A DNA stretch of 64,000 nt, taken from assembly GCF_042453785.1 (NCBI RefSeq), contig NC_091665.1:27638501-27702500 (forward strand). The letters run 5' to 3'. Positions 15,041 to 59,812 of the stretch are shown one piece after another. The position numbers and the translations under genes were made by a program. The notes beneath the pieces were generated by a model. The model was not told where the DNA came from and did not search any database. It saw nothing but the letters and a program-made list of their open reading frames with translations. Position 1 is the first letter of the stretch, and each line of letters begins with the position of its first letter. This stretch comes from Malus domestica. Its lineage: Eukaryota > Streptophyta > Magnoliopsida > Rosales > Rosaceae.

Positions 15041-15178
15041 CTATAACCCTTTTCACTCTCAAGATTCAATCTTTTCACTCTTCCTCTCTCTCTCCTCACT
15101 TCCTCTCTCTAGACCGACAAATTTCACTCACAAAAACACTGGGGACTCTGCAGCAACTCAATCTCCAAGGTCATCACA
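15041..15178 (+). promoter_or_regulatory. Putative formin core promoter and CT-rich leader
   Basis: A weak TATA-like CTATAA lies at 15041-15046, followed by a CT-rich tract (ctcttcctctctctctcc) typical of plant 5' leaders. Starting transcription here would skip the out-of-frame ATG at 14964, which otherwise opens a long overlapping frame. The start at 15179 is preferred because it yields a signal peptide and class I formin architecture. The promoter call is an inference from composition. Confidence 0.35.
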
Positions 15179-24899: not shown

Positions 24900-26010
24900 C
24901 ACATTTGATATCTCTTTATACCCATATTTACTACCTAAACTACCCTTACAAACCCAATTCAATTTATAATTTATCTTAAACCCATTTAAAAAATAAAAAG
25001 CTAAAATCAAAGCATTTTCTACACATTATCTCATTCCAACAGTTGCTTTTTGATGGAGTCTTCATCAACCTCTACAGCGTTGTTTTAAAAAAATCTCATG
25101 ATATTTTGCGTGACGATGTATGTTGCATATGAACTTAAGTTTTTATGGTTTGATGATATAAAAACTTATAAGTTATAACCTATAAGCATATATTGCTAGA
25201 TGAATCATGTCTTATCGAACAAATTGAAGGAAGTAGAGGAAATTAAAAGATGTACACGCACACTTATGAATGAGAAGGCTACTTCCCTTGCCTACAAAAT
25301 AATACTAAACACCAGAAAGAGGACAATCGGTTGTCTTGTAAATGAAGCAAAGCTGACCAAAGGCCAAAAAGAACAAAAGAATAGGGGAACTTGCATAGGC
25401 AGCAGAGTCATAACGTTATATATGACATCTAAAACAATAAATTAATTCTTGCATAAATCCATTCATACTTAGTTGAAGGATTCAAAACTTTAAGATTAAC
25501 GTCCATCTATAAAAAAAAGTTTACTTTTTCTCAATGGGAGAATCTTAGCGTTTTTGTCAAAACATAATGTATAAGAAAAATTACGTAATAATTAGAGCTT
25601 GATTATTAGGGGTGGATTTATTGATAAATCTTATTTTTCTTGTTAATTTTATTTTGTACTTGATGATAATTATGCAATAAGGTAATAAAGAAATTTCACA
25701 TTTAAAATTTAAGTTGGGTGTAGAAAGAAGTTAGATAGGTTCAAATAAAAATTTTCATCTATTTTTAACGAAAATCGAACCTAAATAATTTAGAGGAGTT
25801 AAAAAAGAGAAAGCAAACGTGATGATCTTACATTCTAATTTTTCTATTTGCACTTATTCTCATTGCGTATTTGTTACTCTTCTTTTAATTCAATCGAACA
25901 TAAAAGGAGCGAGAAAATTGTTAGTCTTCTTTAAATTCGAGGAATATGTTTCCATTTCAACTACTTTTTAAACTTTTGCACTGTTTTAAAATGCTAGACA
26001 AAAACCAGCT
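24900..26010. other. Intergenic, no gene seen
   Basis: AT-rich sequence. The open frame at 25200-25445 (81 residues, basic) has no recognisable domain and no supporting splice context, so it is not called. Nothing else is interpretable. Confidence 0.45.
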
Positions 26011-26018
26011 TATTTTAT

Positions 26019-26240
26019 AGGAGGAGGATTGTCTGCCCTCCTAGTTTCAATGCTCTTCCATGCCCTCCTGTTTTGTGTGGTCACGGTTAAACCACATCAT
26101 TATTTTATATTATTTTTTTATAAATATAATAAGACAAAAATAAATAGTAATATAAAATATTAACGTGGCTTAACCGTGACCACACAATCAGAAGGGCATG
26201 GAAGGGCACAGAAACTAGGAGGGCAGACAATCCTCCTCCT
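26019..26240. mobile_element. 222-bp MITE with long perfect TIR and 7-bp direct flank
   Basis: The left end AGGAGGAGGATTGTCTGCCC is exactly mirrored by the right end, GGGCAGACAATCCTCCTCCT. The inverted symmetry continues with tagtttc, catgccctcc and gtgtggtcacggttaa. ATTTTAT lies immediately outside both ends (26012-26018 and 26241-26247). The near-perfect hairpin indicates recent activity. The 7-bp match may be part of a longer MULE-type 8-9-bp duplication. Confidence 0.85.
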
Positions 26241-26249
26241 ATTTTATAA

Positions 26250-27125
26250 GCAGAATCTCTGTTATACAATAGCACTGAATGGACAAAGATTTGAGATATT
26301 ATATATGCTGTTGACAAAAAAAAAAAAAAAAAAAAAAAGAACAGAAGCTATTGGAAATTGGCAAAAGTACTAACTATTTGCCTGCTCCACAACAAATTTT
26401 ATGATCTAAACAGTTCAAATTTTAGGTTATTATAACTACATTATTCATGCAAAATTTCATTCGAATCACAAATCATTTTGCCATTCAATTATTATGGTAA
26501 ACATTTCATTGTTTATCAACAACTTTGTCACCGTCTATTTGTCATGTCACAATTAGATAACTAAATAACTTATGTTTTCAATGAATTTTTGCAAATATGA
26601 TCTTTTAATAATAATCTAGAAAATGATTGGCTCAAATTTTAAGAAATATTGTTTAGCGAGTCTAAATGAGTGGTTAGTTTCGTATTAAAATACTAAATAG
26701 TTAGCACTTGAGCATTCTTGTACATATTGATGCAATGATTTTTACAATGAGTGAAGAAATAAATTGATATCAAATTTTTCATCCACGATATTTGAACATA
26801 AACATTGAGTATATATGAATAAATACATTTTAAGCACATGAGCTATAAGCTCCTTGCAAGTCAATTTAACCTACTAAAAATATCTTTAACCAATAGATTA
26901 CTAAGGTGATCACTGGTTTTGAATGTATATGTGTTTCTTTTTTTTTCTTTTTTCTTTTTTTTTTGAAATGGTACAATATTCATTGATTAAGGGAAATAGC
27001 GTGCATAATTGGCCTTATTAAAAAATTTGTTAGAAATTTCAACCCGATTCAAGAAAAAAAGAGCGTCATGCACAAACAACATAAGTGAACCTATCCTCAA
27101 GGAAATATAATTATAAAACAGCCAC
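26250..27125. other. Intergenic, no gene seen
   Basis: AT-rich sequence with an A homopolymer of more than 20 bases at about 26317-26338 and a T-rich tract at about 26938-26964. No coding or RNA gene is supported. Confidence 0.45.
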
Positions 27126-27129
27126 ATTA

Positions 27130-27258
27130 ACTAGAAATATCCTCTAGTAAGATGTCAATGATGATGTCCGGCCGGCGGTTCCTCGAACCATGACACTTCA
27201 TATTGTATTCCAATTTCGGTCCGAGTAAGCGCATATGAGCTGCATTATTAGCCTCTAA
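27130..27258 (-). pseudogene. 3' part of a split RNase H-like (RVT_3) relic
   Basis: Read on the minus strand, this encodes EANNAAHMRLLGPKLEY and then an Ile/Asp-rich end (PDIIIDILLEDIS). 'NxAAH' is the usual end of plant RVT_3 domains, where a catalytic-region His follows the last helix. It continues the frame that breaks off at 38658, 11.4 kb away. The PIF/Harbinger element with its nested Helitron sits exactly between the two parts. RVT_3 fragments in plants mostly derive from LINE-type retroelements or domesticated copies. Confidence 0.6.
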
Positions 27259-27639
27259 GGCCATCTCTAACCGGGGGTTGGCCAGAGGGCTCGTTTTAGC
27301 CCTCTGGCCCTCCAAGATTCTCCAAGATATTAATATTTTAATGAACAGTACAGGGCCATATTTGCCTCTGTTTCCAACCGAGGGCCAGAGGGCCAGAAGG
27401 CTCGTTTTAGCCCTATCACAAAAAACCATCTCCAACCAAGGGCCAAAGGGCCATAGGGCCAAACCTAATTTATTATTTAAAAACTACAACTAAAATGTTG
27501 TTTAAGTTTCATGTTGTATAATTTTTATGTTGGTTAATTTTATTTAATGTTGTTTCATATTGTTTAATGTTGTTTCATGTTACTTAATTTAATTTAGTTT
27601 CATGTTACTTAATTTAATTTAATGTTGTATAATGGCTTA

Positions 27640-27960
27640 GGAAGTTATAGGAAAAAAATAGAATTTAAAAAAAATATGAAACAAATTTTGTCAAATAGAA
27701 GTTATAGGAAAAAAAATGGAATTTAAAAAAAAATATGAAACAAATTTTGTGAAATAGAAGTTATAGGAAAAAAAATGGAATTTAAAAAACAATATGAAGT
27801 AAATTTTGTGAAATAGAAGTTATAGGAAAAAATATATATGAAACAAATTTTGTGAAATAGAAGTTGTGAAATAGAAGTTATAGGAAAAAAATGGAATTTA
27901 AAAAAAAAACCAAATTTTGTGAAATAGAAGTTATAGGAAAAAATAGAAGTTATATGAAAA
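27640..27960. repeat. Tandem minisatellite, about 57-bp unit
   Basis: A unit containing gaaatagaagttataggaaa followed by 'atggaatttaaaaaa' and 'atatgaaacaaattttgt' repeats about five to six times with small deletions. It lies inside the left arm of the Harbinger-like element. Just before it, 27490-27630 has a looser repeat of 'tgttgtttcatgttacttaa'. Confidence 0.75.
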
Positions 27961-28059
27961 ATTTTGTAAATAAAAAAGAATAATAATAATGTAAAAAAAA
28001 AAAATCAAATCAAATGCAACGGCTAGTAGCCGTTTCATTTGAATTTTTTTTAAAACAAT

Positions 28060-28081
28060 CCTGTCGGTTATAACGGACAGG
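28060..28081. repeat. Palindrome on the left side of the Helitron
   Basis: A near-perfect palindrome centred on 'ggttataac', with arms cctgtc and gacagg. A perfect version lies at 38439-38460 on the other side of the Helitron. Both belong to the interior of the interrupted Harbinger-like element, probably as its subterminal or mirrored internal motif. Confidence 0.7.
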
Positions 28082-28093
28082 AATACACCATTA

Positions 28094-31000
28094 TCTATAT
28101 ATATAAAGTGAGAGCCCCAGTTTGGTGAAACATTCAATAAATCCAATATTGCCCTTTGCTTCCTTCACAATTAAAAACCACAAAAGTTTTGAAAATGAGG
28201 ACAAATTCGTAAAAACACCATAATTGGGTAGAAAACAAAATCTAAAAAGTATTGGAAAAGAAAACAGAAAATTGAAAAAAAGAAGAAAAACAAGCATGTA
28301 GTCTCGGAGCCTCTCAAACTGCTAAGCAGTAGTGGGCAGTTTTCTCCCCCAAAGATTTCCACGATCTGAGTTTGGTGGGAAGGTTCAACACTAACCACCT
28401 GCATACCACCAATATTTAGAGATGAGTAATCGGAAGGAGGCTAATTTTGGTTTTCAGGAGTTCGCTGTGTGGTTTCAGTTCATTCTAAACGAAAAAGGAT
28501 CGACAAACTCAGTGACAGAAATTAGTAAAAGATTTGAGCTTTCGGAACAATTATATGTGCAAAAATCGAAAACTTTCATCGGGTTAGTGATTCATGTTTT
28601 CAGTTTTCGTTCTCTTCAACTTTTGTAAATTCGATAAAAGTTATTTGTTCATCCAATTGGGTTTTTAGGAAATGTTCAATCTCTTTGTTTTTAAAGGATA
28701 TGATTTCGGCTGCAGTTTAGGTTCTTGGATTGATTCCACATTTCAAATCCACTTCTGACCTACTAACCTTGATGGAGGGGAGGGGCAGAGGATGAAGAAA
28801 ATTTCGGGCAAAGAGCTTTGACTTCCTGATTCACTGCGGCAACAACATACCACCATCCTCCTTTCGTTCCCATGTCACCAGAAGCAACAAGAAGATATAA
28901 AACAAAATTGGTGTTTTGAAATTCTGATTAATTTTGCTCAAGTAATGAATAATTTTGATTACTGTTTTTAGTCATTCACATGTTCTTTTTTTTGTTGTCT
29001 TCCATTTTTCGTAAATCCGATTACAGTTTTTAAAACATCAATTCATGTTACTAACAAAAAATTTCATGGCTTTCTATGGTTGTACAGACTGATTGGTTGC
29101 TGACCCATTAAGGTACCTTAATAATTCGCCCCTGTTCTTTGAACAGGTTTGTTTGTCTTGATCTGACATTGAACATATGTCAAATTATACATGCCATGCA
29201 ATTTTAATTGATTGCAAGCAAGCTTATTTGCTTTCTCTGATGTACTTTAAATTTCTCTCTTGGCTTCGTTTGCAATCTTTTTTGGATTAATTCTTCATAT
29301 TCTCCCAATTTTGTATATGTTGGACAAAGAAATTGTTCTCTTATTTCTATCATATGTTTTAACTGTTATTATTTCAAAGTATGTCATTCCTGGCAGATTC
29401 TAACAGATTTTGCTATTCTCAAGCGTCAAAAGAAAGAAATTGAGGAGCTTTGAGCCAAATTGAGTTTAATTATAAATATAGATCGCCTACGTAAAATAAA
29501 GGAATTTAAATATTCTGCATGTTTTAGGAATCTCATTCAGAAAAGTTGGGCAGAGGACATCTTTATTGGTGTTTTATTTAATACATTTTGAATCTTATCC
29601 TGCAGCCTGTCATTTTTCTTCATGGGGTTCTGGAGGAGTAACTTCACCAAGTTTTCAAAGTAATCAAAGATTCTTCAATCCCGAGTTGTACCGATCATTC
29701 TGTTTGATCAGGTTGCAGTATGTTCACCCTTTATGATAAGTTATTATATAAAGCTCAATTTGTTTATGTTTTGGTAATTTTGTAGTAGAAATGCCAGAAA
29801 TCGATAATGTACTTAGTTCCGTTCCGTTTCCGGGAATTAGTTTCGATAGTTTGAATGTGTAAGTCGAGTGAATTAAGGTTGTTGTAATCTATTTGTGAGT
29901 TTAAGTGATTCCCCTCATTTGGTTTTCATTTTAGTTCGGCTTTATAGTAAATGCAATTCCAGTTCCTAAAGCTCAAAGAGAAGGTCGACAAATGTACGTT
30001 TACAGCTATATGTCGTGTTCCTTTTGAGTATGTGATTGGGCTTTTGTCTTTCTTCCATTTGAATCATCAGTTTTCCTTTCAATTTTCACGGAATTTTTTT
30101 TTTGACATGTAATGGAAGTTTGTAGGGTTTATGCGATTTATAGTGATGTAAATAAAGTTGTTGCGAAGAAGACCTCCCTTACTCTCTGAAACCGTAAACG
30201 GAACGAAACGGTAATTCTCCGCGCCTTGTCCTTTTCCATTGAAGAGTTTCAAATTACTTTCCTATTTTTTTTTCTCATTGAATTGTCTTTCAAGTGTAAT
30301 TATTTAAATGGGATTGACACATATACTGGAAATATGAAATTGGAAAATTTCAACAATGGGATTGTGTGGCACAATAGCCAGTAGACAAAAGGGAATAGAT
30401 TGAATTAGTTGGACTCATTTTTTACTGCCTTATTGCAGAGATTATCACTTCCCTCCCCAACTTTTTACTGATCTATGTCCACTTCGTCCTACTTATTTAA
30501 ATGCCTTAATCTCTTGAATGCTTCTTCTTTGCTTTTTTGTCCATTTTCAGTTTTTAAATTGTATTCTTTGTTCCTTATATATTGACATTTTGTATTTTGC
30601 TTGCTTAAGTCATTACGATTCTCATACGACTGGGATCATGAATATTATAGATGGACCCAATGGATCTTCCTTCAGCGATTAAAGAGGGGATTGGCGTATC
30701 AGGTATGCATAAGATATTGGCGGTGGTAGTTTCTATCATTTCCACCAGTGCACAGATCTAATACTCTACTTTGTTACATTCAGGCTGAAGTGCCAGTTAA
30801 TTGGTGCCCGCTTTTGGTACTGTATTGGCAAATGAAGAAGTGATAAGATGGTTTCAGTGACCGTGGGGATCAGAAAGGTATATATTGGTTTGGTGCATTT
30901 TCATTTTACCATCTAAGATTATAAAAAAAAAAAAAAAAAACTTATTGGCTTAATTCCAATTTTCTGATGGTTTTATAATTTTACTATGTCAATTTGTAGT

Positions 31001-32595
31001 GTCATTATTTATTACCAAGCAACCACTGTAGAGATTATAACTTCTCTCCCCAACTTTTTACTGATCTTTGTCCACTTCATCCAATTATTTAAATGCCTTA
31101 AATCTCTTCAATGCTTCTTCTTTGCTTTTTCGCCCATTTTCGGGTTTTAACACATTTTGTGATTGTGCAACAGGTATTGGATTGATTTTGGCAAGTGTAA
31201 TTTTTTGTTAACATTGATTAGATTCGGACCTTTGTGTCAATTGAAGTCATTGCTGCTCGGTTAGCTGAGGTATGATTGCTAGCTTTTTCTCTTTAGTGCA
31301 ATACAAAATGTTTTGAGTTGTTATATGGACTTAAGATTTAGTAAGTACTTGCCGAAAGTCATGGGATTTTGAAATATCGATGTCTTGCTTGCTTATAAGC
31401 TTACAAATTTATTTTTAGCTTAAACATCTAAGAACCAAGGTAGTCCTTTTTCACTGCCTCACTGCGTACAATGTGTTCATGATTTACACAATAGAATCCT
31501 CAACTCCATGATTACCTGTTTTCTTTCATATATGTTTTTCTTTTACTAATTTATGTTTTAACATTTTGTTCTCTTTCAAATTTCGTAAATCTGAGTTTTT
31601 GAAAACACATACAATTCATGTTACCAACAAAACCTTTGATGCTTTTACACACTCATTGGTTGCAGACCCATTTGTCGAGGCACGAACAAAAAGGAAGGGG
31701 GGGAACTGTATTATTGTCATAGCTTTTATGTTGGCAGTGAGCCTTGAAGAAAAGGAAGGGTGATAACAGTGGAAGAGGTGGCTTTTTGCTTTTGGCCTTT
31801 TGTTTTCTTCATTTTGCTGAATGTTGAGACTTGAGAAAAGAACTTCTAATGTTGAAACCTAATTCAATGTGAAAACGTACCTAATCATGTTAGCATATAA
31901 ATTTGATTGTTATTTTGTTCAATTTACACCTTCACGTTTCTAAATGAATATAAATTTACATTTTGCCTTCGCAGTCGAAATCGATGGTCAAAAAGCTACC
32001 CATTATTGAACTCTATCCGATATTTCATCTATTCCCACTCCCTTATAATCCTAAAAAATATTAAATGAAATATGTTCCAACCAAATGCTTGACTTTTAAA
32101 TACTTGACAATTATATCATGTCCATATATAAATTAGAGGCATTCACATTAAGCTAACTCGACAAGAAACACATCTCTGGTGCAATAGGGAATGTTGACAT
32201 TAAACAATAATATGATAGGGTTTAGGGTTATTACAAAAAGTTTAAAATTCTACTCATCCAGTTGACATAAAAATTAAAACGATATAAACTACGCTAATTT
32301 ATAATATTTTTTTTTAAAAAAAAAACCCTTAAGGCTAAATTATATCCAAGGCCTAACACCAACCAACAAGTGTATAAAGGCCCGTCATTTTCTTGCATTG
32401 ATACTTATTACACTTCAAAAATATTTTGTGATTATTTTATTTTGTTCTTTTGTATTATAGTGTTATGTACATAAAGCTTTTGTTTTCATCTGTTCGTAGG
32501 CATCTGTATACACCTTTTCGTATTTGTGGAATGTCACAAAATTTGTATTCTATTTAGGTTCATTATGTTTATTAATTTTTTAGATAAATTTTTCC
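28094..32595. other. Helitron left half: cargo region
   Basis: No intact gene is present. It holds leucyl-tRNA synthetase exon fragments (30.6-30.9 kb). It also has a roughly 120-bp direct repeat at about 30436-30555 and 31028-31150 (ccccaactttttactgatct, then aatgcttcttctttgctttt). A second, weaker repeat of about 130 bp lies at about 28985-29110 and 31545-31690 (attcatgtta, then attggttgc, gacccat). Short exon-like pieces that I cannot assign include 28422-28628 and a piece near 29400-29455 reading ILTDFAILKRQKKEIEEL. Confidence 0.6.
30612..30890 (+). pseudogene. Captured fragment of an organellar-type leucyl-tRNA synthetase gene
   Basis: Leucyl-tRNA synthetase charges tRNA-Leu. Two consecutive exons and their intron are recognisable. 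The first piece (about 30612-30699) reads [18 protein letters not shown] and then [11 protein letters not shown], followed by a GT donor. The second piece (from 30784, after cattcag) reads AEVPVNWCP and then, after a frameshift, GTVLANEEV and later DGFSDRG. These are hallmark blocks of bacterial/organellar LeuRS between the HIGH region and the editing domain. The copy is a short internal fragment with at least one frameshift, so it cannot make an enzyme. Retention of the intron shows capture at DNA level, as expected for a Helitron. It lies on the same strand as the Rep-helicase gene. Confidence 0.85.
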
Positions 32596-35500
32596 ATGGA
32601 GTGTGCTCAAAGTCGTACAAGACAGTGGCGTCAATCATTGAGTCCTGAAGAACATCAAAGATATCTAGCTCGACGACGTCTAATAGCACAAGAAAAAAGA
32701 CAACAAATTCCAACTCCAAGTGATGATCATACTACGACATCTCCCAGTAACATACAGCAAGAAATTCCTGGTATTTATTTCATATTCTTTTTTCTTAAAC
32801 TCATAATTAAAAAAATTTTAAAAATCTAATTTCTATTTTTTTTAAACTATGCAACAAGTAGGTCCCAGTAATATACAAGAACGAGTTCATTTGGCTAACT
32901 ATGATGTTGAGGTCAACCCCAGTAATATACAACAACAAATTCCAGGTATTTATTTAAATTTCTTTATTTGTATTTGTTTCACACTTTAAAAATTAGGTAA
33001 TTTTTAGAACACTATTTTGTGCATTGAAATCTCATTTTATTCTTTTGTTCGTACTCTCATATTGATCTCAATGTTGTAATTATTTTTATTGGTAGTCTTA
33101 CAAAATATTAGACCACAACTAAATATATTAAATATTAAACATTAAATTTTTACCTAATCATATTATAATGTGGTGTATTTATTAGAACAAATTGAGCATG
33201 AAAGCGCGAGTTCAAGGGTTCTGTCAGATATCACAAATCGTGATGACCAAACTTTTGCTACAATGCGTATTCATATAGGATCATTGACACATTCGAATAG
33301 GTCACAAATATATGATGGGATGCTCTCAACTCTTCCCCATAATGGTGAGCTTAGTATATAATTCTATCTATATATAGAAGATATATTATTAGTTACAAAG
33401 GAAATTCTTATACTGAGTGTTGGATATTCATGTACAAATATCAGAAGAAGAACATGCAACTAGAACCAATCGTCATGTGCGGCAAAGTAGAGGAAGAGGA
33501 AACCACAATTGTGCTAGAAATTATAATGAGAATCGAGGTATCCTAGGTTGCCGCTTACCTGCTCCAACCACATGTCCGTACTGCTACGCACAATTGTTTA
33601 CTCGAGAAACTTTGAATATGTGTTGCTTGAAAGGAAGAGTTGCTTTACCCCCAATACAATCTCCACCAGAAATGGTTGCTCTTTTCTCTGACCAAACAAA
33701 TGAGGGTAGACACTTCAGGCAAAATATTCGAGCTTACAATCACGCATTTGCATTCACTTCAATGGGAGTACACGTGGATGAAAGAATAAATATTAGTGGC
33801 CGTGAGATTTACACATTTCATGCTCAAGGTGCATTATATCATAAGATTGGTGGACTTTTACCACATGAAGGAAACAGACCGCGATTTTTACAAGCCTATA
33901 TATATGACACTGAGCATGAAGTTGAAAACCGAATGTGTGAAAGTGAAGTTTTAGATAGACGTGTGGTTGAAAAGATACAACAGATGTTGAACAACCATAA
34001 TCCTTTTGTTCATACATTGCGAAGCCTCGGACAACGCCAAGATTTGCCGAATTGCAAGTTGATCCTAAAAGAGCAACCAATAGATCGGCGTCAGTATAGT
34101 CTACCATCAGCATCACAAGTTGCAGCAATTATAATAGATGGAGATGATGCCACCATTGCAAATGGAAGGGATATCGTGGTCGAGACAATTAGTGGAAGAC
34201 TTTCTCACGTCCGAGACTATGTCGGATTTTATGATCCGTTACAGTATCCACTATTGCTACCTTACGGTACATATGGTTGGGATGTTAATAGTCGTGATGA
34301 TGGTGGAAGAGCAATAACATGTTGCGACTATTATGCTTATATGTTACAGGTTTGTACCAATAACATAATTTACTTCCCAATATATATAAATGAATGATGA
34401 TTCCCATATTAAAAGCAATATATGAAATTTGCTTCTGCAGATACGCCATAATGGATCATCACTTTTGCTTCGAGGTGGGCGTCTCTTGCAACAATATGCT
34501 GTAGATAACTACATTAAAATTGAATCACAAAAACTTCGATGGCTGCGTTCTAATCAAGCCACAGTTAGAGCAGATCTCTATAAAGGACTTCAAGACTCTT
34601 TAAATGCAGGTCAACACAATGCAGGTATATATATCATTTCAGTTATCGTTATTTAAAAATATAACTTTGTTCAAAATCTGTACAATATATATAGTTAGTT
34701 GAAAATAAAAAATTAACAGGTAGCATTGGGCGTAGAATTATTTTACCATCATCATTTGTTGGAAGCCCACGTGACATGTACCAACGATATCAAGATGCAA
34801 TGACTCTGGTTCAAAGATTCGGAAAGCCAGATCTTTTTATTACCATGACATGTAACCCAAGTTGGGAAGAAATCAAAAGTGAATTACTCGCTGGACAAAC
34901 TCCACAAGATCGTCCTGACTTACTCACTAGAGTATTTCGTGCAAAACTTGAGCAACTAAAAGAAGACATCATTGAAAAGGGGGTACTGGGCAGTGTTGTT
35001 GCGTACGCATACGTTATTGAGTTTCAGAAACGTGGTCTTCCACATGTGCATATGCTGGTGGTGTTAGATGAAAATGATAAGATCAATAACCCAGATGAGT
35101 ATGACCGAATTGTTAGAGTTGAAATACCAAACAAAGACGTAGAGCCTCAACTTTACAATGTAATGTTAAAGCATATGATTCATGGCCCATGCGGGATTCA
35201 TAATCCTCAATCTCCATGTATGAAAAATGGGAGCTGTAAGAGAAAGTATCCCAAACCATTTGCACCAGTCACTGTTCAAGGAAATGATTCGTATCCAATT
35301 TATCAAAGGCGAGGAAATCGATTGCCCGTTTCTCTTGATCGACAAGGAAACATAATGGTTGATAATAGTTGGGTCATTCCATATAATCCATGGTTGCTGT
35401 TAAGGTATGATTGTCACATCAATGTTGAAATTTGTGCAAGCATAAAAAGTGTCAAGTACTTATATAAGTATGTTTACAAAGGCCCAGATAGAGTGACAGT

Positions 35501-37784
35501 CGAAGTGCAATCAGACCTTGAATACGATGAAATAAAGCAGTTTCAGGATGCAAGATGGGTTTGCGCACCAGAGGCATTATGGAAGATATTCAAGTTCATT
35601 ATTAATCGAATTTACCCATCTGTTGAGCGATTGCAAATACATCTTCCTAATATGCACCAAGTTCAGTTTCGTGCCGACGAGAGCATAATAAATATTCTAC
35701 ATGATGAGAGTACAAGAAAGACAATGTTAACTGAATTTTTTACACTTAATCATGTGGATGCAGAAGCGCGACGATACTTATACATGGAAATCCCATCACA
35801 TTACAGATGGATTCAAGCTCAAAGAAAGTGGTCTAAAAGAATGAATCGTAACAAGGTTATTGGGCGAATATATGCAGTTTCACCTGCTGAAGGTGAAAAA
35901 TTTTACCTTCGAATTCTTCTTAATCATGTTAGAGGACCAACATCCTTCACAAACTTGAGAACGATTAATGGGGTTTTGCATCCAACATTTAAACAGGCAG
36001 CAGAACAACGAGGTTTATTAGAAAGAGATGAGAGTATTCGACAATGTTTGCTAGAGGCCTCCACAATTCAAATGTCATCGGCTTTACGAAGATTATTCGT
36101 CACCATATTGGTATATTGTGCACCAATTGGTGTTCGAGGGTTATGGGATGAGTTCTATCCATTCATGATAGAAGATTATGTTACCATGACTAACATGACT
36201 CCCACACTTGCTACCAACAGACTCTTGCATGAGTTGAACATACTTTTGGTTCAATTTAATAAGAGTATAAACGAGTTTGATTTCCCCCAAATGACAAGAG
36301 GAAATGAATCAAGTTCAGGAATGACAAGATGTATTGAAGATGAGATATCCATAGGTATTCCACAACAAGATCTTGATGCAATTGAACGCTTAAATGATGA
36401 CCAAAGAAATGCGTTTAACATAATAATGGGTGCAGTTCAACGATCAGAGAATGCAACTTTTTTTGTGGATGGTCCCGGTGGAACTGGAAAAACTTACTTA
36501 TATCGCGCATTGTTAGTAAGCTTGAGAAGGTTGGGGCACATAGTATTAGCAACAGCATCATCTGGAATAGCAGCTACGATATTTCCTGGTGGGAGGACAG
36601 CACATTCTAAATTCAAGATACCACTTAGTCTCGATGCATCATCGATGTGTTCGATTGGTAAGCAATCTGATTTAGCAAAGCTAATACAAAAGGCAAAGGC
36701 AATTATCTGGGATGAAGCAACAATGACGCATCGTCATGCATTTGAAGCACTCGATCGAACATTCAGAGACCTAACGGATATTGACTTACCATTTGGGGGA
36801 AAAATAATGATATTTGGGGGAGATTTTCGACAAGTTCTTCCTGTTATCCGGAAAGGAACCAAGTCCGAACTAATCCAAGCAAGTGTTGTTAAGGCATCAT
36901 TTTGGTCAGAGGTAAACATTTTAAAACTCAAACAAAACATGAGATCCATAAATGATCGTGAATTTTCAGAATTTTTACTTCGTGTTGGTGATGGGAATGA
37001 AGATGTTATTATGGATGATATGGTAAAACTACCTGAATGCATGGTGATACCATGGGAGAGTGAGCATTCCATTAATCAATTAATTGCCAAAATCTTCCCT
37101 AACTTAGAGGATCATATGAATGATGCAACCTACATGGTGGAAATGGCAGTGGTAACTCCTACAAATGAAGTCATTGATATGTTAAATGAAAAGATAATCA
37201 ATATGTTTCCAGGTTTAGAAGAGACAATGTATTCATTTGATTCAGTTGAGGATGATGAAAGGAATTTGTATCAGCCAGAGTTCTTGAATTCAATCTCACT
37301 TGGTGGTTTGCCTCTGCACAAGTTAACTCTAAAAAGAGGTGCTCCAATCATGCTTTTAAGGAATATTGATCCAAAATTGGGATTGTGTAATGGTACAAGA
37401 TTATTGTGTCGTGGTTCTTACCGAAATCTTATTGATGCTGAAATTCTAACTGGACAATTTGCCGGATCCAGAGTTTTTTTACCAAGAATCCCTCTTAAAA
37501 GTACTGATACTGCTGGGCTTCCATTTGAACTTACAAGAAAGCAGTTTCCAGTGAAACTAAGTTTCTCTATCACTATAAACAAATCTCAAGGTCAGACAAT
37601 ACCACATGTAGGCGTTTACCTTCCAGATCACGTCTTCAGTCATGGACAATTATATGTGGCTTTATCGAGGGGGGTCTCAAAGTCAACCACAACTGTGTTA
37701 GTAAAAAATGGCTTCATAGTCGGCCAACAAGGTGTATTTACACGGAATGTAGTATACAAAGAAGTCTTGCTTCATTCCAGCTAA
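32596..37784 (+). CDS. Helitron Rep-helicase transposase (RepHel)
   Basis: This enzyme nicks, unwinds and transfers one strand of the Helitron during rolling-circle transposition. Six exons, 32596-32770, 32862-32945, 33186-33344, 33445-34349, 34441-34624 and 34720-37784, have GT/AG introns and join in frame to 1,523 residues without a stop. A Cys-rich finger-like block (CPYC, then MCC) lies in exon 4. The Rep nuclease has the HUH motif as HVH (about residues 611-613) and the paired tyrosines in KYLYKYVYKG (about Tyr749 and Tyr753). The C-terminal PIF1-type SF1B helicase shows Walker A GPGGTGKT (about 1087), DEAT (about 1167), FGGDFRQVLP, and the final HGQLYVALSR (about 1477). Exons 1 and 2 both end in a PSNIQQ-IPG repeat, suggesting an internal duplication. 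All named catalytic motifs are present. It is the only gene of the element. The start ATG is the first in frame, but upstream exons cannot be excluded. Confidence 0.95.
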
Positions 37785-38410
37785 TTATGGTGATTCCTAA
37801 TAGGTAACAACTTTATTAACGATAATCTTTCAATATGCATTTCTCACTTATCTTTTAACTCTTTTTATTTGATTTTTAATTTTCTCACTATTGTTTGTAG
37901 ATTGGCAATGAAAATTTGAAGTGTCAATCAGGAACGAATGGATGGAAATTGCAGCATTGATGTCAATTTTCTTTTCAAAAGAAACAATGACATTTAGACT
38001 TTATGGGTATTGTGAAAAATGTACATATTGTGATGTCGGTTTTATATTTTGACATTTAAGTTGTTTTGTATTTTGCTACGAGTACTTAATGTTTTCATCT
38101 ACTTTTTTTTTATTCACATCTACTTACTATTGTTTATGAACACAAGGTAGGAACTTGCTTCCAGATGATGTTGTTTGACAATTGCATGAATAACATTTAA
38201 ATCATTACTGTAGGCAAAGTGAAAACAAAAAATATGACAATTTTTTAAGACGTGCATGATAAAGATAAAGTTCCTCTTTGCTCAATACATCTAAAATATA
38301 TCTTGACAATCACAATGAAAAAGACTAACACAATACACCTTTAGGGGCGCGTAGCGCCCGTGATGCAAAAATGCCTCTCGCACGCACGTTAGTGCGTGCG
38401 GAGAGACTAG
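37785..38410 (+). terminator. Helitron 3' terminal region with two hairpins
   Basis: After the RepHel stop, an AT-rich tail leads to two GC-rich stem-loops. One has a 6-bp stem GGGCGC/GCGCCC (38345-38350 with 38354-38359). The other has an 8-bp stem GCACGCAC/GTGCGTGC (38380-38399) and a four-base loop. The second is the usual Helitron rolling-circle termination hairpin, 11 bases before the CTAG end. The first hairpin is additional and may be a family-specific feature. Confidence 0.8.
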
Positions 38411-38438
38411 TTTAGTATATTAAATAATAGTATGTATT

Positions 38439-38460
38439 CCTGTCGGTTATAACCGACAGG
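38439..38460. repeat. Perfect palindrome on the right side of the Helitron
   Basis: A perfect palindrome with arms cctgtcggtta and its complement. Its near-identical partner is at 28060-28081. It lies in the right arm of the interrupted Harbinger-like element. Confidence 0.7.
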
Positions 38461-38655
38461 AATAACAAAACATTAAAAAAAAAAATAGCCAGCTCGAGGC
38501 TGGCTGGCTGGCCAAAGCAGCCAGCCCTCCAGCCCTCTCTGATCCCGTGGGGCCCTCCCAGATTCCAGAGCCCTCTGGCCAAGCCCTCGGTTGGAGACGG
38601 TTTTAGGGCTATTTTCGGCCCTCTGACTCTTTGGACCCTTCGGTTAGAAATGGCC

Positions 38656-39550
38656 TAACAAGTTCGACTTTGGCTGAGTGAAAGCAAGGAGGAAAGTACA
38701 CACATCATTAATGATAGGTCCCAACAATGAACAATCTTCCTCACACCGCTGCACAGCAGCACGCGTGATGCTCGAATCTCCTTCGAAAATAACATCGACT
38801 TCACTTGGGTAGAGTTCCTGGACAAACACTACTGCCTTCCTTGCCGCTAGAAGCTCAGCTTGCAGCGGCGATGCAACGTTTTCAAGCGGTTCAGAGACTC
38901 CAGCCGCAAAAGAGTTCCCTAACTACCCAGGACAGTCTCTGACATTTTAGGGGTCCTGTGCAAAATTTATAAAATGACCATTCCTTAAAATATTTTAAAA
39001 AAGTAGAACAATATATTGATGCTAAAAAACAATCAGTTAAATCAAAACAAACTTTACCACTCACTTATTGCAAGTTTATAAATATCATTAATTATAAGTA
39101 AAAAAGAGTTACGAACATAACCTTCACTAAATAAGCAAAAGAAGTTCAATCTTAAACAACCAAACATGAAAAAAAACTTCAAAACTCTAATTTTAAAGTT
39201 TCACTTGAATATAACATATTATTATATAATAAAATTGAAAAAAAAATATCGTTTTTAGAGTGTTATTATTAACACTAAAAATATCTCATTATACTCCAAA
39301 TTTTTATATTTAGAAGGGAAAAAAATTACTCTTATAAAGAGTGCACAATGAGATTTTAAAGTGCTGACAAAAATAATATTTTAAATATAGAACATTATTA
39401 CATAATATTATATGGTAAAAATTTTGGGGGCCCTTCAAATTTGTGGCATGTGCTACTGCACCTCCTCCTTTCCTCGACCGCTCCTCCCATGCCCCGTCAA
39501 AGTTACACTTGATCCAGCCCCCAAAAAAATTAAATTGCGTGTGTTCCCCC
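38656..39550 (-). pseudogene. 5' and middle parts of the RNase H-like (RVT_3) relic, interrupted by an AT-rich insert
   Basis: The minus strand reads GWIKCNFDGAW, then GGGAVA (about 39440-39530), the first RNase H strand with its catalytic Asp. After an AT-rich insert of about 500 bp (about 38940-39440) the domain resumes. It continues with VRDCPG, a TAG stop, GNSFAAG, SPLQAELLAARKA, and IFEGDSSI (about 38660-38935), which supplies the second and third acidic positions. It then runs into the TAA duplication of the Harbinger-like element and continues at 27258. RVT_3 domains are RNase H folds that cleave RNA in RNA-DNA hybrids. This copy is dead. It sits immediately downstream of the truncated NB gene in the same orientation, and so probably marks the point where that gene lost its LRRs. 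Confidence 0.7.
38940..39440. mobile_element. AT-rich insert splitting the RNase H-like relic, with a nested MITE
   Basis: The two halves of the RVT_3 domain lie on either side of this 0.5-kb AT-rich block, which begins near ggggtcctgtgcaaaattt and ends near attttgggggcccttcaaat. The exact ends and target duplication are not clear. Within it, about 39255-39385 forms an inverted repeat (gagtgttattattaacac, then tctcattatactcc, mirrored by gtgcacaatgagat, then aaagtgctgac) related to the MITE at 13124-13241. Confidence 0.5.
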
Positions 39551-39576: not shown

Positions 39577-40704
39577 TCAATACCATCCCTTTGAAGCTAC
39601 TATTGATAAGCCTACCTTGTGCACTATATCATGCATTTTTACGCACCCTTCCTTGTCACTCTCTAACAACAAAAAACTACTCTTGAGTATCTCAATCAAT
39701 GTTTCTACACACTTTCCTGCTTCCCTCTTGGAATCGATGTCTTTAAACAGCTGAAGTCCAACCCCAAATTTCACTAAATCATGAACCAGTATATCACTGC
39801 TTTCCGGATATATGCAGCAGAACAGAAACAATGATTTCGCTTCCTCGCTCCCTAAACATTCGTAGCTCAACTCTATTTTCCGATACGCTTCTTGTACCAT
39901 CCCTGGAATATTTTCGGGGCAAGGCTTTCTTAGTTGTCTCAGTGCATCCTCCCACGTTTGCTTGCTTTTATGCTGCAGTGCCCTTCCAACAGTTGCAATT
40001 GCAATTGGTAAACCGGCACATTCACTCAGAACCTGTTGTGCTACCGGACGTAGCTCAGGAGATTCAATGGAACTGCCTGCCATCTCTCTAAGCAAACTCC
40101 AAGCTTCTTGCTCTGGCAAAATACCAATAGGCAAACTCTTCTTGTTGCCGGACAGATGGAAACTACTTTGAGCTCTCATGCTAACACTAAATTCATTCAG
40201 GAGTCCCAACATAAAGATTATCTTACACTTTCCGTTGGGTGACCCATAAGGGATTCCGATGGCCTCAAGATCAATCATTTCCCGGACATCAAGAAATACT
40301 ACAAGCAACCTCCTAGAGTCTTTGGACATTCGAGCACGCAGCACCTTTGCCCGTTCAAACAAATTCCCATTTCCCAACTTCACTTGTAGATTATCTGCAA
40401 TCTCATCTTGTATTCGTCTCAAGTTGGGATCAAGGGATACAACAGTCATGACAACTTCTTCAAATAGACCTTGCTGCTTGACTCTCTCCATGAACTCTTT
40501 CGTCGTTACTGTATCTCCTGTTTTGATTTCCCCACAATTAATGCTAATCAAGTTGATATTTTCAACCTGCAGAGCCCTCAAGATCTCCCTTGTACATGGT
40601 AGTTTGTATTCCAAGCGCTCCGAAAGCTTCATGGGTGGTGGTTCAGTAAAGTTGGATCTTCCCGAGGAGCTAGCCCCGTCACGAGCCATAACAGATTTGA
40701 TCAT
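39577..40704 (-). pseudogene. Truncated NB-ARC resistance gene paralogue (no CC, no LRR, hybrid NB domain)
   Basis: NB-ARC proteins are immune receptors that switch between ADP and ATP. This 375-residue frame starts at a linker also found in the neighbouring CNL (Ser/Gly-rich, then a EILRALQ block). It enters a degenerate NB half without a P-loop (INCGEIKTGDTVTTKEF where GMGGxGKTT is expected) and with a weak kinase-2 site (RLLVVFLDVREM). It then jumps into the normal second half: ILPEQEAWSLL, CAGLPIA, an SYECLGSEEAKSLF block, and VKMHDIV in place of the MHD motif. It ends just after the MHD at an RNase H-like relic. There is no coiled coil and no LRR. The P-loop is missing, so nucleotide binding is unlikely. 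It could be expressed as a small decoy or regulator, but the truncation fits a pseudogene. Identity to the CNL at 41640-46762 marks it as a tandem duplicate that lost the piece between the two NB copies. Confidence 0.8.
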
Positions 40705-41639
40705 AGAATGACAGAAACAATGAATGAAAATAAGCAGCTAATAAAGAACAAGAGGAATCGGAAACTGTGAATAGAGAAATGCATGGTCTTGAAGCAGACT
40801 TTACTCACAAAAATCAACTTAGCTTTGTCAGCAAAAGGAATAGGAAACTGTGAATGGTCAAGTCTAAACAAACATTAATTTGAAAAGTAATTAGCCGCAG
40901 CAAACATTTTAGAAGCAGTCAAAAATAGCAGCAAAAATTTTAAAAAAAAAAAAATATTCCAAACCCAAAGGAAAGAATTAACTAGTAATTAGGCTAGAAT
41001 CTCGTCTAGGGTTTGAAATGATATGGAGGCCAAAAAATAAGATGACAGAAAAATTTGACTTAACTAATATATGCGTCATTTTTTTTGTATTATGAAAATG
41101 CCCTTCATATGTCTCGTACTTTTCACGCCAGCCATTAACGTTTAACAAAACGAAAGGTATAAATTGAAACAATTTTAAAACCTTAAGGTTGAAGAGACGA
41201 CTGACCAAACCAAAGATATAAATTGATGCAATTCTGAAATCTCGATGTAAAATAATAAAATTAAAATCATGCGACCTATTTGAAAACCATTATAAAATCA
41301 AAAGGTGCAAAATGCCTTAGCACAAACCTTATCATCTTAATATTTATTTTTCTATAGCTAGTGGTTTGTAGCTTAATATCCTAGAAAATTGTCGGCTATA
41401 TATGTATGGATGTCCCAAAATACATGTACCAGAAGAACTTATAAGAATTATAAGGTAAAAAAACTCTAAATGTGTGACCAGATGTACCAAATCTCATAAG
41501 TTCGATAGCTTCAGAAATCCATATTTGCATGCGTGACCATATCCCTTCTAAGGATGGTAAACCTCCTTAGAAGGCAAAACTCAACATATAACTTCGAAGT
41601 TGTTTACTGGACAATAGAAACGCAAAATACTTATGAAGA
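40705..41639. other. Spacer between the two NB genes
   Basis: AT-rich sequence. No gene is seen. It should hold the 5' flank of the truncated NB gene (right-hand part is 40705 upward) and the 3' UTR of the full CNL gene (just below 41640). Confidence 0.45.
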
Positions 41640-44600
41640 TTAAGTTTCTTTCCGACTGTCGTTCAGCTCCTTCTGAAGATTTTCACTTGCCCCGCTGATA
41701 CTTAACTTCACTTCCCTTGGTGTGCTAAGGGAACCTAAACATAAATTCTCCATTCGAGGGCATTCTTCAACGGTTAACTCTTCCAGTGATGGCCAATCTA
41801 AATTACATTTGCCTTGAGAAAAAATTATGAGATTTGGTAGAGCGCGAAGTTCCAAATAACTTAGCTGAGGGAGCAAGCTGTTATCCTCTGATTCTTCATC
41901 CGCTAGCGGTTTTGCAACTACCACTTCCATCTTCTTGCACTCAATTATGGATAGACCTTTGAGCTTCACCATACCCCTAGCAATGGAAGGAGAGAGTAGA
42001 AGCTCCAAACTGATACAATCAGAAATGTGTAATGATGTTAACTGAAAGCCTTGAATTTGATTGGAACCCCTGATTTGCGTCATTTGAGTTTGGGAAATTG
42101 AAGATGTTTTGCCAGACTGAGGAAGTGTTGCAGTGGGTTCTTCATTGGCATTTGACCCTGTGGACTCAAAAATCTCTTCCAGGGAATTGCAACCCTTCAC
42201 AATTAACTTGTCTAGTTTATGCAATCTATTCTGCACCTCAACTGTTACCAGAAGAACTAAGTTGCTACAACCGGACACATGCAGGTCTCGGAGTTCATTG
42301 AAAGAGTAGGGTAGAAGCTCCCTGCTCCATAACTGTCTGAAATTTTGCATATCACGAATTTCTAGCGTCTCCAGAACTGGAAAACCAACCTGAAAATGCA
42401 TCGAACTTTGTTAGTACCAACAATGATGAAAAGTTAAAACTTGCCAGCATAGATTTAGAGTGATGTGCAAACCTCTTCATTAAAAATATGGTTTGGAACA
42501 CCATAAATTGATCCCATGGCTTCAGATGATGGAACAAACGTCTCCATGGTAAGGCAGCCAATCACCAAAGTTGTCAATGATGGCCAGTGAATAGCGCATG
42601 GAGCACGGCAAAATGTTCTGAGGGAGGGTAAATTATCAAGATGGAGAGATTTTACTTGAGGGAAAACAATTATCTTTGTTGCCTCTTCATCTCCATGGCC
42701 TCGTTCATTTTCGGCAAGAATGTCTCGCATCGCAGCACAATCACTTATATACATAGATTCTAGTTTCACGAGATTTTCAGCAACGAACCGTGGGAACACA
42801 TATCTCAAATTTCCACACTGCATAACTTGGAGCATTCTTAAATTTTGAAACGCCATGATGTTTTGAGGTGGATTCCACATGTATTTCAACAAGGGTAGCT
42901 TACTCAACTCCATTATTTCCAAGTCAGAGAACAGTGCAGGAAATTGCTTTGGATTCTGTTTCATTTCTAGATCTTCAAAGTCGAAAACTGTTTCCAGTGA
43001 CCTACATTCCCTTACTTCAAGTTGTTCCAGACTTTGTAAGTCCTGCACCCAACTGAACGAGAAAATACCAGTTAGCTTAGCACATTCCTTCACCGTCACA
43101 AATCGCAGCTGCCAAAAGGGACTAACCTGTTGAATTAAAGAGATTGTCAGCTGAGCTATCCTGATTTTTTTACAAGTTTTGACACAGAGTTTAGCAGCTG
43201 GGGTAACATATTACAATCTTAAGGAAAGGGAAAATACCTTGGTGTCAAATAAATGTTGTTTTGTGGCATAAGCAATGCTACTTTCTGGAGCCAAACTATC
43301 TGGGGAAAGACTCATGATTTTTGGTAGGTATTCCAACTTCAACGTGATCAATCCAGGAAAGTTGATCTGACATGTTGTTTTGCTGATCCCAACGAACCCT
43401 GGTAGTCTTTCAAGATTCAAGCGTAGCAAATTGGGGTGATTGATCTCGTTGACTTCTTCCTCATTTTCCGATCCTTCAGAGGCAACAATCTGTTTTGAGG
43501 TCTGATCTTTTAAGGCAACAATCTCTTCCAAATAGTTGCAATTCTGTATGTCTAGCTCTTCGAGTTGCTTCAGATGGCTAGCTACTGATAATAAGAAGAG
43601 ATATTTTAGAAGGTAACATCTACTCACCTTAACACATCTCAGATTTCCTAGACATTGACCAAATTGACTTGGTATCTTCCATAAATGTGTTAATTTAGGT
43701 AGAGATGATAAAGATAACTCTCTAAGTCCGTTAAATGACCCCATTGGAAGCTCGCCATGAAAAACCGCCTTGAGCTCCTTTAGTTCATTGATCTTCAGAG
43801 TATGCAGGACAGGGAAAACGCTTACGTATCCTATGTCAAAGACATGTTGCAGATCTTCAGATTGGCAGAGCTTTAGAGATTTCAAGTTTAAACAACAGCT
43901 TCTTCTCAGGTCATTAAGAGTTCTGCTCATATACTTCATGTCTAACTCTAGAACGTTAGTTTTCTCTAGCAATATAGTTATTCTACTCTCCGCAGGAGAT
44001 TCTGCTGCATAGCTAAGTCTCAAGTAGTTCTCACAGGGATTCACATCCCAACAACTATTGTTCCACCATCCTATTGAGATCTTAAATCTTTCAAGCTGAT
44101 CAAACTGCACCCCTGTTGACTTTACAAGTGGATTCAGAGCAATTTCTAAAGTAGTCAATTGGGACAAGGAACTTAGCTCTGGAGCAAAATGACAAGTGAT
44201 GCCCCTGATTTTTGAACCTTGATTTCGATCCTTATGTCTGTTCCCTTCATCTAGTTGTGCTTGGGTTTGTTCCTCAACCTCCCATTGCTGGAAGCTATTC
44301 CACAGGTACAGTTCTTCTAGATGAGCTAAACTCGATATGACACCCATTGGAATTTTCATAACTCTGCATCCTGTCAAATCTAGCAACCTTAGATTTGACA
44401 AGTTTTTAATTTCATCAGGAAATTGATCGAAGTTGGATCCACAAAAGCTGAGTACCATGAGTGTCCTTAGCTCTCCAATTACGGATCTAGCTTCCACACT
44501 GAGATTGCAATTCTCTAGACGCAGCGTTTGAAGGTTTCTCAACAGTGGAATCGATGGTAGTATTGGCAGTGGAAATCTGCTTCTGATGGCTAAAACCTTG

Positions 44601-46762
44601 ATGCCTTCACTTGTTCTCAGAATAGTGGCAGGTGGTTCCAATGGACATTTATCAGTGCATGAAACTAATAAAAGCTCGTTATGCATACGAGTTTTATTGG
44701 TTATAATGAGTGTACTAGAAGAGTATTTGCCAGGCCAATCCTTCAATTCCACCTTGTGTCTGGTCACAAATCCTTCTTTACCATCAGTAGCTATTGATAA
44801 GGCTACATCCCGCACCACATCATGCATTTTGACACACCCTTCCTTGTTACTGTCTAACAACAAAAAACAACTTTTGAGTATGTCAACCAACGTTTCTACA
44901 CGGTTTCTTCCTTGTACCAGTGAATCAATACCTTTAAACAACCCAAGCCCGAAACCATATCTAACCAAATCTTCAACCGGTATATTGCTGCATTCTGGAT
45001 ACAGACAACACAGGAAAAAACATGATTTGGCTTCCTCGCTTTCTAGACATTCATAACTTAGCTCTATTTTCCGGTAAACTTCATGTATCATTCCCGGAAT
45101 GTTTTCTGGGCAAGCGTTTCTTAGTTGTGTGAGTGCATCATCCCACATCTTCTTGCTTTTATGTCTTAGCGCTCTTCCCACCGTCGAAATTGCAATTGGC
45201 AAACCAGCACATTCTCTTAAAACCTGTTGCGCTACAGGACGTAGCTCAGGAGACTCAATGGATCTGCCTGCCATGTCCTTAAACAAAGTCCATGCATCTT
45301 GTTCTGGCAACACACTGATCGGAAAATTCCTTTTGGTTTCTATGTCATTGAATATATCTTGATTTCGTGATGACACCAAGATTTTGCAGCAAGATGGAAT
45401 TCCTACTTCCTCCATATCTATCTGTGTCCAAACGTTATCTAATATTACAAGGACCCTCTTATTACCCGATAATCTTTCTTTTAACTTGTTTGCTCTTCCA
45501 GCTAAACTTTGCCCTGTGAGCTTCAGACCTAGAAAATCTGCGATTTCCTGTTGAATATGACTTAAGTCAGGAGTTTGGGCAAAAACTGCCATCGCAACCT
45601 CATCGAATAGATTCAATGCTTTTGCTCTCTTCCCAACTTCTTTCACCAAAGTTGTCTTGCCAATACCTCCCATTCCACATATCACAACCGGATTGATTTG
45701 ATCATCGGTTAGAGCATTCATTACATCTCTAATGGTTAAATTTCTTGATTCAAAATGTATATTGCCCTTTACGGATGTAGATGCCAATAACAATTTGAAA
45801 TTTCTTTTAGTTCTCACCTCACTGAAGACATTTGAGTGTTTGGCTACCAATATGATCTTGCATCTTTCCTTGCTATCACCACCAAGGATTCCAACTGCCA
45901 CCAAATCAAGTAATTCCCAAACATCAGCCAAAATCACGAGTAGCCTCTTCGAGTCCATGGACATGATTCTAGAATTTAGCTTCTCTGCTCGCTCAAGTAA
46001 ACTTTGATCTTCCAAAGTCAGCCCCAGCACATCTGCTATTACACCTTGTATCCTTTTCAGGTCAGGATTCTGGGACACAAGTGCCACCGCAACCTCTTCA
46101 TATAAATCTTGCTCTTTGACTCTGCGGATGAACTCTTTCGTTGTTACAGCATCTTCCCGTTCAATTATTCCAGCAATACCAATCATATCGATATTGTCAT
46201 CTTGCAGAGCTTTCAGGATCTCCTCTGAATAGGGTAATCTATGCTGAGGACCCTCAAAAAGTTCCATTGCTGCTGCTGGAGGGGCAGGGTCAGATGTTCC
46301 TGAGGAGCTGCCCCCTTCATGTATTGCCGAAAACCCTATCTCCGGGGGAGGAGCAGGATACGAAACCCTCGTGAAACTCCCATCTCTAAGAAGGTTGTCA
46401 ACCACCAAACTCATCTTCTTAGCCTTCTCACCCAAGTAACGCCGCGACTTCAACTTCGAAAACCAACCATTAAAACACCTTGGCTTCTCAACTCTTTCGT
46501 TTCCAAAACAAGTCTCCATTTCTTGTATAGTCTTGTTTACATTGCACAGCCAGGTCTCAACTTCAGGAGCGATTGTCTCCAAATTCCGGGCTGCTGCCTC
46601 CACGGCGAGTTTCACCCCGTCTCTTTTGCCAACCAGCCTCTCAGTTTGATCGGTGAGATGCTCTACATTACTCTTGTAATGGATCAAATAACTTAACTTT
46701 CGCCAAACCGGAGTCACAGTGAACTGAGCCAGTTTGGTAACAGCTGAAATGCAAATATCCAT
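41640..46762 (-). CDS. CC-NB-LRR immune receptor (At4g27190/RPS2-like group) with duplicated NB half
   Basis: This is an intracellular pathogen receptor. Three exons on the minus strand, 46762-43238, 43126-42473 and 42389-41640, have GT/AG introns and join in frame to 1,642 residues. The start at 46762 (MDICISAVTKLAQF) is the usual N-terminus of this CNL group. An upstream in-frame ATG at 46816 would add 18 basic residues. The CC domain spans residues 1 to about 130. A degenerate NB half spans about 175-335, with no P-loop (GIAGIIEREDAVTTKEF), a kinase-2-like RLLVILADVW, and CKIILVAKHS. The working NB-ARC follows at about 344-660, with P-loop GMGGIGKTT (363-371), kinase-2 VLVILDNVW, RNBS-B CKILVSSRN, CAGLPIA (518-524) and MHD (about 646-648). 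Many irregular LRRs follow to the end. All nucleotide-binding motifs of the second NB-ARC look intact, so the protein is probably functional. Two NB halves in one CNL are unusual. The tandem neighbour 39577-40704 is a truncated relative. Confidence 0.92.
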
Positions 46763-46859
46763 CTTTTTGTATTTTCTTTTTCTTCCTCTTCCGGTGACTA
46801 TGATCAGAAATCGCAAAACAAAGCAATAACAAAGGCAAAGAAAGAAAGAACTTTTTCAC

Positions 46860-59258: not shown

Positions 59259-59625
59259 TTAAAGGCTCTTGCAGTTGTTTAAGCACAGGCGATACAGGTG
59301 AGTAGCTTGTTTGACGCTTGCAGGGATGCTCTCAATCATTGTTCCACATAGATCTAAGTCTTGTAATGAGATTAAGCAAACAAGGCGATCTGGGATTTCA
59401 AAAATACCGGAGTTACTGATGTTTAGTTCTTGCAAAGAGTGGAACCCCACTGAGAAGGGAGGCAGTTGTTTAAGTTTCAAACAGCCATCAAACCTGAGAG
59501 TTTCAAGAGAATTTAAATTGTAGATGCTGTTAGGGACAGACTCAAGGTTATTGCACCCATATAGTGCTAATTCTTGAGCCCCAGTTAGATTTTTAATCCC
59601 ACATCGACATGCATGTGAGGGGATA
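59259..59625 (-). pseudogene. TNL leucine-rich-repeat fragment in reverse orientation
   Basis: The minus strand encodes four to five TNL-type LRRs: LTGAQELALYGCNNLESVP, LNSLETLRFDGCLKLKQLP, HSLQELNISNSGIFEIP, LISLQDLDLCGTMIESIP and HLYRLCLNNCKSL. The CxxL..LP pattern is typical of TIR-NB-LRR receptors, which sense pathogen effectors. There is no TIR or NB domain nearby. It runs opposite to the TNL C-terminal fragment at 59850-60773 and lies between two inverted repeats. The simplest explanation is inversion of one exon of the same gene, or capture by a TIR element. Confidence 0.8.
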
Positions 59626-59680
59626 ATATCGGTGTTGTTGGAACAGCCATTAATTGAGTCCCATGTGAGGGGACGTGTTG

Positions 59681-59812
59681 GATCCCACATCGGTCGTAGT
59701 AAAAGATAAGTAATGGTTTAAATATCCTAAGTTTACTTTAACTAATACCGAAGCCTTTTGTGATAAAAACTCACACATGACGGATTGTACATGTGGTAAT
59801 TACTAAGTTGGG
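59681..59812 (-). repeat. Right arm of the 130-bp inverted repeat
   Basis: Reverse complement of 59049-59179, about 75-80 percent identical by eye. The arms share 'cccacatcggtcg', 'agtaaaagataagta', 'cttttgtgataaaa' and 'gacggattgt'. Confidence 0.8.

Follow-up and report, generated by a model that had tools for sequence, protein, structure and literature searches.

In a 64,000-nucleotide stretch of the Malus domestica genome (assembly GCF_042453785.1, contig NC_091665.1, positions 27,638,501 to 27,702,500, forward strand), which we call the window and whose own numbering is used throughout, we identified a Helitron located at 28094..38410. It is very probably a full-length Helitron, structurally autonomous, from a genome of the apple tribe (Maleae), probably Malus; it carries host-gene sequence, and its Rep-helicase (RepHel) appears to have gathered changes without detectable selection. 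The element and its terminal features are as follows.

28094..38410, plus strand: Helitron element of 10,317 bp that starts with TC, ends in CTAG, is flanked by A and T, and has a 3' hairpin and a RepHel gene
28094..28123, plus strand: left terminal sequence, first 30 bases, read directly
38381..38410, plus strand: right terminal sequence, last 30 bases, read directly, with CTAG at 38407-38410
38375..38405, plus strand: 3' terminal hairpin, with core GCACGCAC-GTTA-GTGCGTGC at 38380-38399
38344..38360, plus strand: second GC-rich palindrome GGGGCGCGTAGCGCCCG, 5' of the hairpin, read directly

The 5' end reads TCTATATATATAAAG, and its initial TC (28094-28095) is preceded by an A (28093). The 3' end reads GGAGAGACTAG, and the terminal CTAG is followed by a T (38411). 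The interval begins and ends as canonical plant Helitrons do (5' TC, 3' CTRR), lies between A and T, and shows by eye no repeat (target-site duplication) at its borders. Its final 40 bases have a folding energy of -23.6 kcal/mol (RNA parameters), which is below that of every one of 1000 mononucleotide shuffles (mean -10.2, standard deviation 2.7, lowest -21.4 kcal/mol). The initial annotation had described both termini, the insertion between A and T and the 3' hairpin, and all of these are borne out.

The Helitron appears to interrupt a second transposable element with terminal inverted repeats, split into two parts.

27259..28093, unstranded: left part of the interrupted Harbinger-like terminal inverted repeat element, with target-site duplication TAA at 27256-27258
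38411..38655, unstranded: right part of the same element, with target-site duplication TAA at 38656-38658

The tips of this element match at 16 of 19 positions (counted by eye) with TAA on both sides, and its inner inverted similarity scores 66, compared with at most 30 in 500 shuffles. From the tip and the TAA we take it to be a non-autonomous PIF/Harbinger-like element. The arms at 28059-28087 and 38433-38461 are palindromic and 97% complementary, and when the flanks are joined without 28094-38410 they form a foldback of about 86 nucleotides (-52.1 kcal/mol) that carries the insertion in its apical stem. The restored palindrome was considered as proof of the exact junction and ruled out as such, since that junction ranks only 41st of 625; because borders displaced by a few bases fold equally well or better, the foldback supports the inserted interval rather than the exact base. 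Tandem-like AT-rich repeats with irregular spacing are also present at 27636-28001, inside the Harbinger-like element adjoining the Helitron.

The RepHel gene consists of six exons, modelled on splice consensus and reading frame and listed here with the residues identical to those of a Rosa homologue, P0002, among the residues aligned.

32596..32770, plus strand: exon 1, P0002 23/40
32859..32945, plus strand: exon 2, weak homology support (P0002 5/10), with a further copy of the PSNIQ motif found in exon 1
33186..33344, plus strand: exon 3, weak homology support (P0002 15/53)
33445..34349, plus strand: exon 4, P0002 212/298, with a Cys motif at about 33573-33626 that by eye resembles a zinc finger
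34441..34624, plus strand: exon 5, P0002 38/61
34720..37784, plus strand: exon 6, includes the stop codon and encodes the Rep (HUH) and PIF1-type helicase domains, P0002 762/1,018, with matches in Pfam and to PDB 7lcc

Each of the five introns has a GT donor and an AG acceptor, and the joined exons comprise 4,575 nucleotides that encode 1,524 residues followed by a stop codon, with no internal stop. The six exons in phase that had been claimed for this gene are upheld by these borders and by the open frame; the length given with them, 1,523 residues, is not, although the difference is trivial. Two Rosa chinensis proteins of similar length (1,534 and 1,529 residues, 68% identity) cover 100% of the query and thus support the overall length of the protein. 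Homology supports exons 4-6 strongly, and exon 1 is supported by its match to Rosa; for the predicted exons 2 and 3 the main evidence is their splice sites and reading frame. A 25-nucleotide repeat is found at 32743, 32864 and 32918, which suggests that exon 2 derives from a local duplication.

The catalytic motifs of the predicted protein lie in exon 6.

35043..35051, plus strand: HUH motif H612-V-H614, aligned to Helraiser H593/H595
35457..35471, plus strand: paired tyrosines Y750 and Y754, aligned to Helraiser Y727/Y731
36471..36494, plus strand: Walker A GPGGTGKT with K1094, aligned to Helraiser position 1068
36711..36716, plus strand: Walker B D1168-E1169, a motif in the joined RepHel translation
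37668..37670, plus strand: motif VI arginine R1487, assigned from the motif and matched in alignments to PIF1 chains, 7otj among them

Exon 6 matches the Pfam families Helitron_like_N (PF14214, E 2.4e-47), PIF1 (PF05970, E 8.5e-74) and Pif1_2B_dom (PF21530, E 3.8e-19), all well above the cut-offs, and the reading frame of exon 4 by itself matches no Pfam family. The protein has both the HUH nuclease and the superfamily 1 (PIF1-like) helicase that characterize a Helitron RepHel. Nearly the whole length of exon 6 aligns with Helraiser (PDB 7lcc, E 1.1e-266), the bat element rebuilt in active form. Of the six Helraiser residues whose mutation is described as abolishing transposition, among them the motif VI arginine R1457 (PMC4778049), five align here in a comparison that extends to just before motif VI, and the sixth is present by motif. 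The HUH motif, paired tyrosines, Walker A, Walker B and final helicase motifs noted in the initial annotation are in place. The two elements differ in that Helraiser is an animal element that was reconstructed, whereas the window element occurs naturally and has changes of its own.

As relatives we took the best 120 of 3,718 proteins at E <=0.001, among 7,954 scored candidates. The closest of these by identity are Pyrus and Malus baccata proteins, and 17 close Malus and Pyrus proteins are 84.6-96.3% identical to the window RepHel over the shared part (15 of them at 92% or more, 14 at 93-96%). Since 14 of the 17 are this similar, recent activity of the Helitron is plausible. Pyrus communis P0001 and Malus baccata P0004 and P0005 are 94-96% identical over the shared part; they differ from the window RepHel in length (1,160-1,248 residues) and have nothing aligned to its exons 1-3. 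A FastTree phylogeny of 24 sequences groups the window copy with seven Malus baccata proteins (support 1.000), with the Pyrus copies apart. These relatives point to a host in the apple tribe, most likely Malus, a placement that depends on which relatives the database contains. Pyrus x bretschneideri P0030 also belongs to the Maleae; it is 64.8% identical, represents another lineage, and was counted with the 103 outside proteins, not with the 17 close ones. PF08646, which we take to be an RPA-type domain, is found in the same protein as RepHel in two of the best 120 relatives (P0036 and P0044). The element belongs to a large Helitron family that is already known, and is not unusual within it.

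In the alignment of the 120 relatives, 267 columns are near-invariant (at least 95% conserved, with at least 60 residues). The window RepHel matches 263 of these and differs at four, V637, M652, F1025 and M1312. The relatives have A at position 637 (112 of 115), V at 652 (all 113 with a residue), L at 1025 (110 of 114) and R at 1312 (107 of 110, and Helraiser as well). M1312 recurs in Malus baccata P0019; the residues at the other three positions occur in none of the 120. We also counted private changes, with the 17 Maleae proteins and the remaining 103 relatives as reference, and called a column strongly conserved where at least 90% of the 103 agree. Over the 1,236 columns compared, 16 substitutions are private; seven of them fall among the 350 strongly conserved columns, one being borderline (0.90 after rounding), compared with 4.5 under an even spread. 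The same count in nine other Maleae copies of the 17 gives 1/4 (P0001), 1/14 (P0005), 7/20 (P0009), 1/2 (P0010), 33/137 (P0012), 0/2 (P0015), 0/0 (P0016), 5/12 (P0017) and 7/33 (P0019), where gene-prediction errors may inflate some of the totals. P0005 looks constrained and several other Maleae copies do not. The private changes of the window copy hit conserved columns at roughly the rate given by an even spread, like those of a copy drifting without selection. By codon calculation, 0.99-1.11 stop codons are expected alongside 16 missense changes in the absence of selection. Because only about one is expected, finding none provides no evidence of selection.

These substitutions bear on whether the protein still works. 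The chances are about even that the copy is inactive, having been transposed in trans or before the substitutions arose, and that at least one change, such as that at 652, 1312 or 1369, has already weakened RepHel. The M at a position where every relative with a residue has V, the replacement of an arginine that even Helraiser retains, and an expected stop count of about 1.0-1.1 that makes the open frame unremarkable all agree with such a history. However, the known catalytic residues are all unchanged, and M1312 may be tolerated because P0019 has it too. That the element is a currently competent master copy driving Helitron movement in its host seems rather unlikely. Its 1,524 codons contain neither stop nor frameshift, the catalytic motifs and both ends are present, and a comparable case is described in wheat, where the autonomous driver Feng8 is the sole one of five inspected transcribed copies without a nonsense mutation or frameshift (PMC13286980). 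Against this stand the four altered near-invariant columns, three of them with a residue found in no relative, and private changes that show no avoidance of conserved columns. An earlier description of the copy as having no evident defect stands as far as stops, frameshifts and catalytic motifs are concerned; it needs qualifying in view of the near-invariant columns (four of 267 altered) and the conserved columns hit by seven of the 16 private changes. The copy is readable from end to end, but these substitutions make it somewhat doubtful that its protein is still fully functional. As a full-length natural copy from the apple tribe it is a reasonable candidate for testing, less certain than the first reading suggested because of the private changes at conserved sites. 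The case also illustrates that, where substitutions are few, an unbroken reading frame is poor evidence of function.

The region of about 4.5 kb located 5' of RepHel (28094-32595) matches no Pfam family at E <=1 in six frames, and no RPA domain was detected there. It contains the following features.

30613..30810, plus strand: decayed leucyl-tRNA synthetase (LeuRS) fragment, exon pieces 30613-30702 and 30784-30810 with the intron between them retained
29606..29711, plus strand: possible proline iminopeptidase fragment, frame broken, with a GT splice donor at its end
30434..31150, plus strand: internal direct repeat of 124 nucleotides, copies 30434-30557 and 31027-31150, 84% identical

The intron between the LeuRS pieces has GT and AG borders, and the joined pieces encode 39 residues whose best PDB match is 3ziu (E 2.5e-9). 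Among the 18 PDB chains listed for these residues, 15 are leucyl-tRNA synthetases or leucine--tRNA ligases and one (2v0c) is an aminoacyl-tRNA synthetase; the remaining chains are a valyl-tRNA synthetase (E 0.24) and a lysyl oxidase (E 5.9). The unjoined translation also matches LeuRS, weakly, and the reading frame is broken further downstream. When the three forward frames of the region were each read whole against PDB with phmmer, the third matched eight chains, seven of them LeuRS or aminoacyl-tRNA synthetases (best E 0.01), and the other two frames gave no match. A putative methyltransferase (3ll7, E 0.029) matched in the same frame as LeuRS and was taken as chance. We infer that the LeuRS sequence was captured by the Helitron, and the retained intron implies uptake of genomic DNA rather than of cDNA. 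For 29606-29711 the best PDB chain is 5yhp (E 0.021), and all three chains found are proline iminopeptidases or prolyl aminopeptidases, which is suggestive of an origin in a proline iminopeptidase gene. A kinesin coiled coil was considered for a short stretch at about 29400-29450 and is not claimed. A further direct repeat pair is located at 29039 and 31612, and the direct repeats hint at a stepwise assembly of the 5' region.

Such a composite region could also mean that 28094 to about 32500 is another insertion or host DNA and that the true 5' end of the Helitron lies nearer the gene. We regard this as very improbable. The host-gene sequence and internal repeats would fit it, as would the several terminal sequences described for many maize Helitrons (PMC3288121), but removal of 28094-38410 joins the arms of the flanking palindrome into its near-perfect foldback, as expected from one insertion.

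Several points weigh against a full-length autonomous Helitron with captured host sequence and a drifting RepHel. Good homology support is wanting for exons 2 and 3. A search of a large protein set with the LeuRS fragment gave four candidates, none of them named as a plant protein; they share an identical set of four Pfam domains, and one is named as a bacterial leucine--tRNA ligase. The argument for drift is built on 16 changes and on automatically predicted proteins, of which the 17 close ones are all shorter, and the comparison uses the relatives' proteins alone, with this copy as the one nucleotide sequence examined.

Helitrons of this kind are known from other plants. ZmhelA1, a putative autonomous Helitron of maize, is described as encoding Rep and helicase without a frameshift in more than 10 kb (PMC3288121). 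The window element resembles it in its unbroken Rep/helicase, its length of more than 10 kb and the host-gene fragments beside RepHel. However, ZmhelA1 is reported to contain eight predicted fragments of genes together with a putative remnant of RPA, whereas in the window element one fragment is supported, a second is possible, and no RPA domain was found. According to PMC4683698, many plant Helitrons carry RPA, which is not among the features that it gives as common to all Helitrons. Genetics, extrachromosomal circular DNA and new insertions are presented as evidence that Feng8 is autonomous (PMC13286980). Feng8, which prefers AT insertion sites, and the window element, which lies between A and T, both have a multi-exon RepHel, an HUH motif, two tyrosines and a helicase, and Xuan1, of the Feng8 family, shares the TC start, CTAG end and 3' hairpin. 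In contrast to the window element, with six exons and 1,524 residues and known from sequence, Feng8 has seven exons and 1,676 residues and its activity has been demonstrated. The window element is a new copy of a known kind, an autonomous-looking Helitron with gene fragments, as published in maize. Among the titles listed in the Malus, apple and Pyrus literature (20 of 20, 7 of 7 and 12 of 58), including that of a Rosaceae paper (PMC11197308), none names an autonomous Maleae Helitron.

By analogy with Helraiser and Feng8, RepHel would nick at the 5' TC through its HUH/Tyr site, helicase unwinding would follow and terminate after the 3' hairpin at CTAG, and a circular intermediate would then insert between A and T. 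From the time when it last shared an ancestor with the sampled copies, RepHel appears to have accumulated amino-acid substitutions with no sign of selection, which places its function in doubt. It is very unlikely that the locus presents the full combination of a competent Maleae Helitron, inserted near the tip of a long foldback within a Harbinger-like element and carrying intron-bearing host-gene sequence, with a hint that Helitrons favour palindromes that are extruded and partly single-stranded as targets. If true, the capture of host-gene sequence would be open to study in a master copy.

Other features were observed elsewhere in the window. Nested inverted repeats at 26008-26251 (66 nucleotides, 88% complementary, and 46 nucleotides, 87% complementary) form a compact foldback that is probably a miniature inverted-repeat transposable element. 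The remaining features resemble known gene families by eye. Two long frames on the plus strand at 929-3674 resemble an interrupted hAT transposase, and plus-strand frames at 15113-19199 resemble a formin gene. Long minus-strand frames at 39577-46855, one of them 1,214 codons, resemble CC-NBS-LRR resistance genes, and within this region 39600-39899 and 44791-45090 are 76% identical. Frames on both strands at 59259-60773 resemble TIR-NBS-LRR remnants, and a minus-strand frame at 62033-62917 resembles the LRR region of a receptor-like kinase or of a receptor-like protein.

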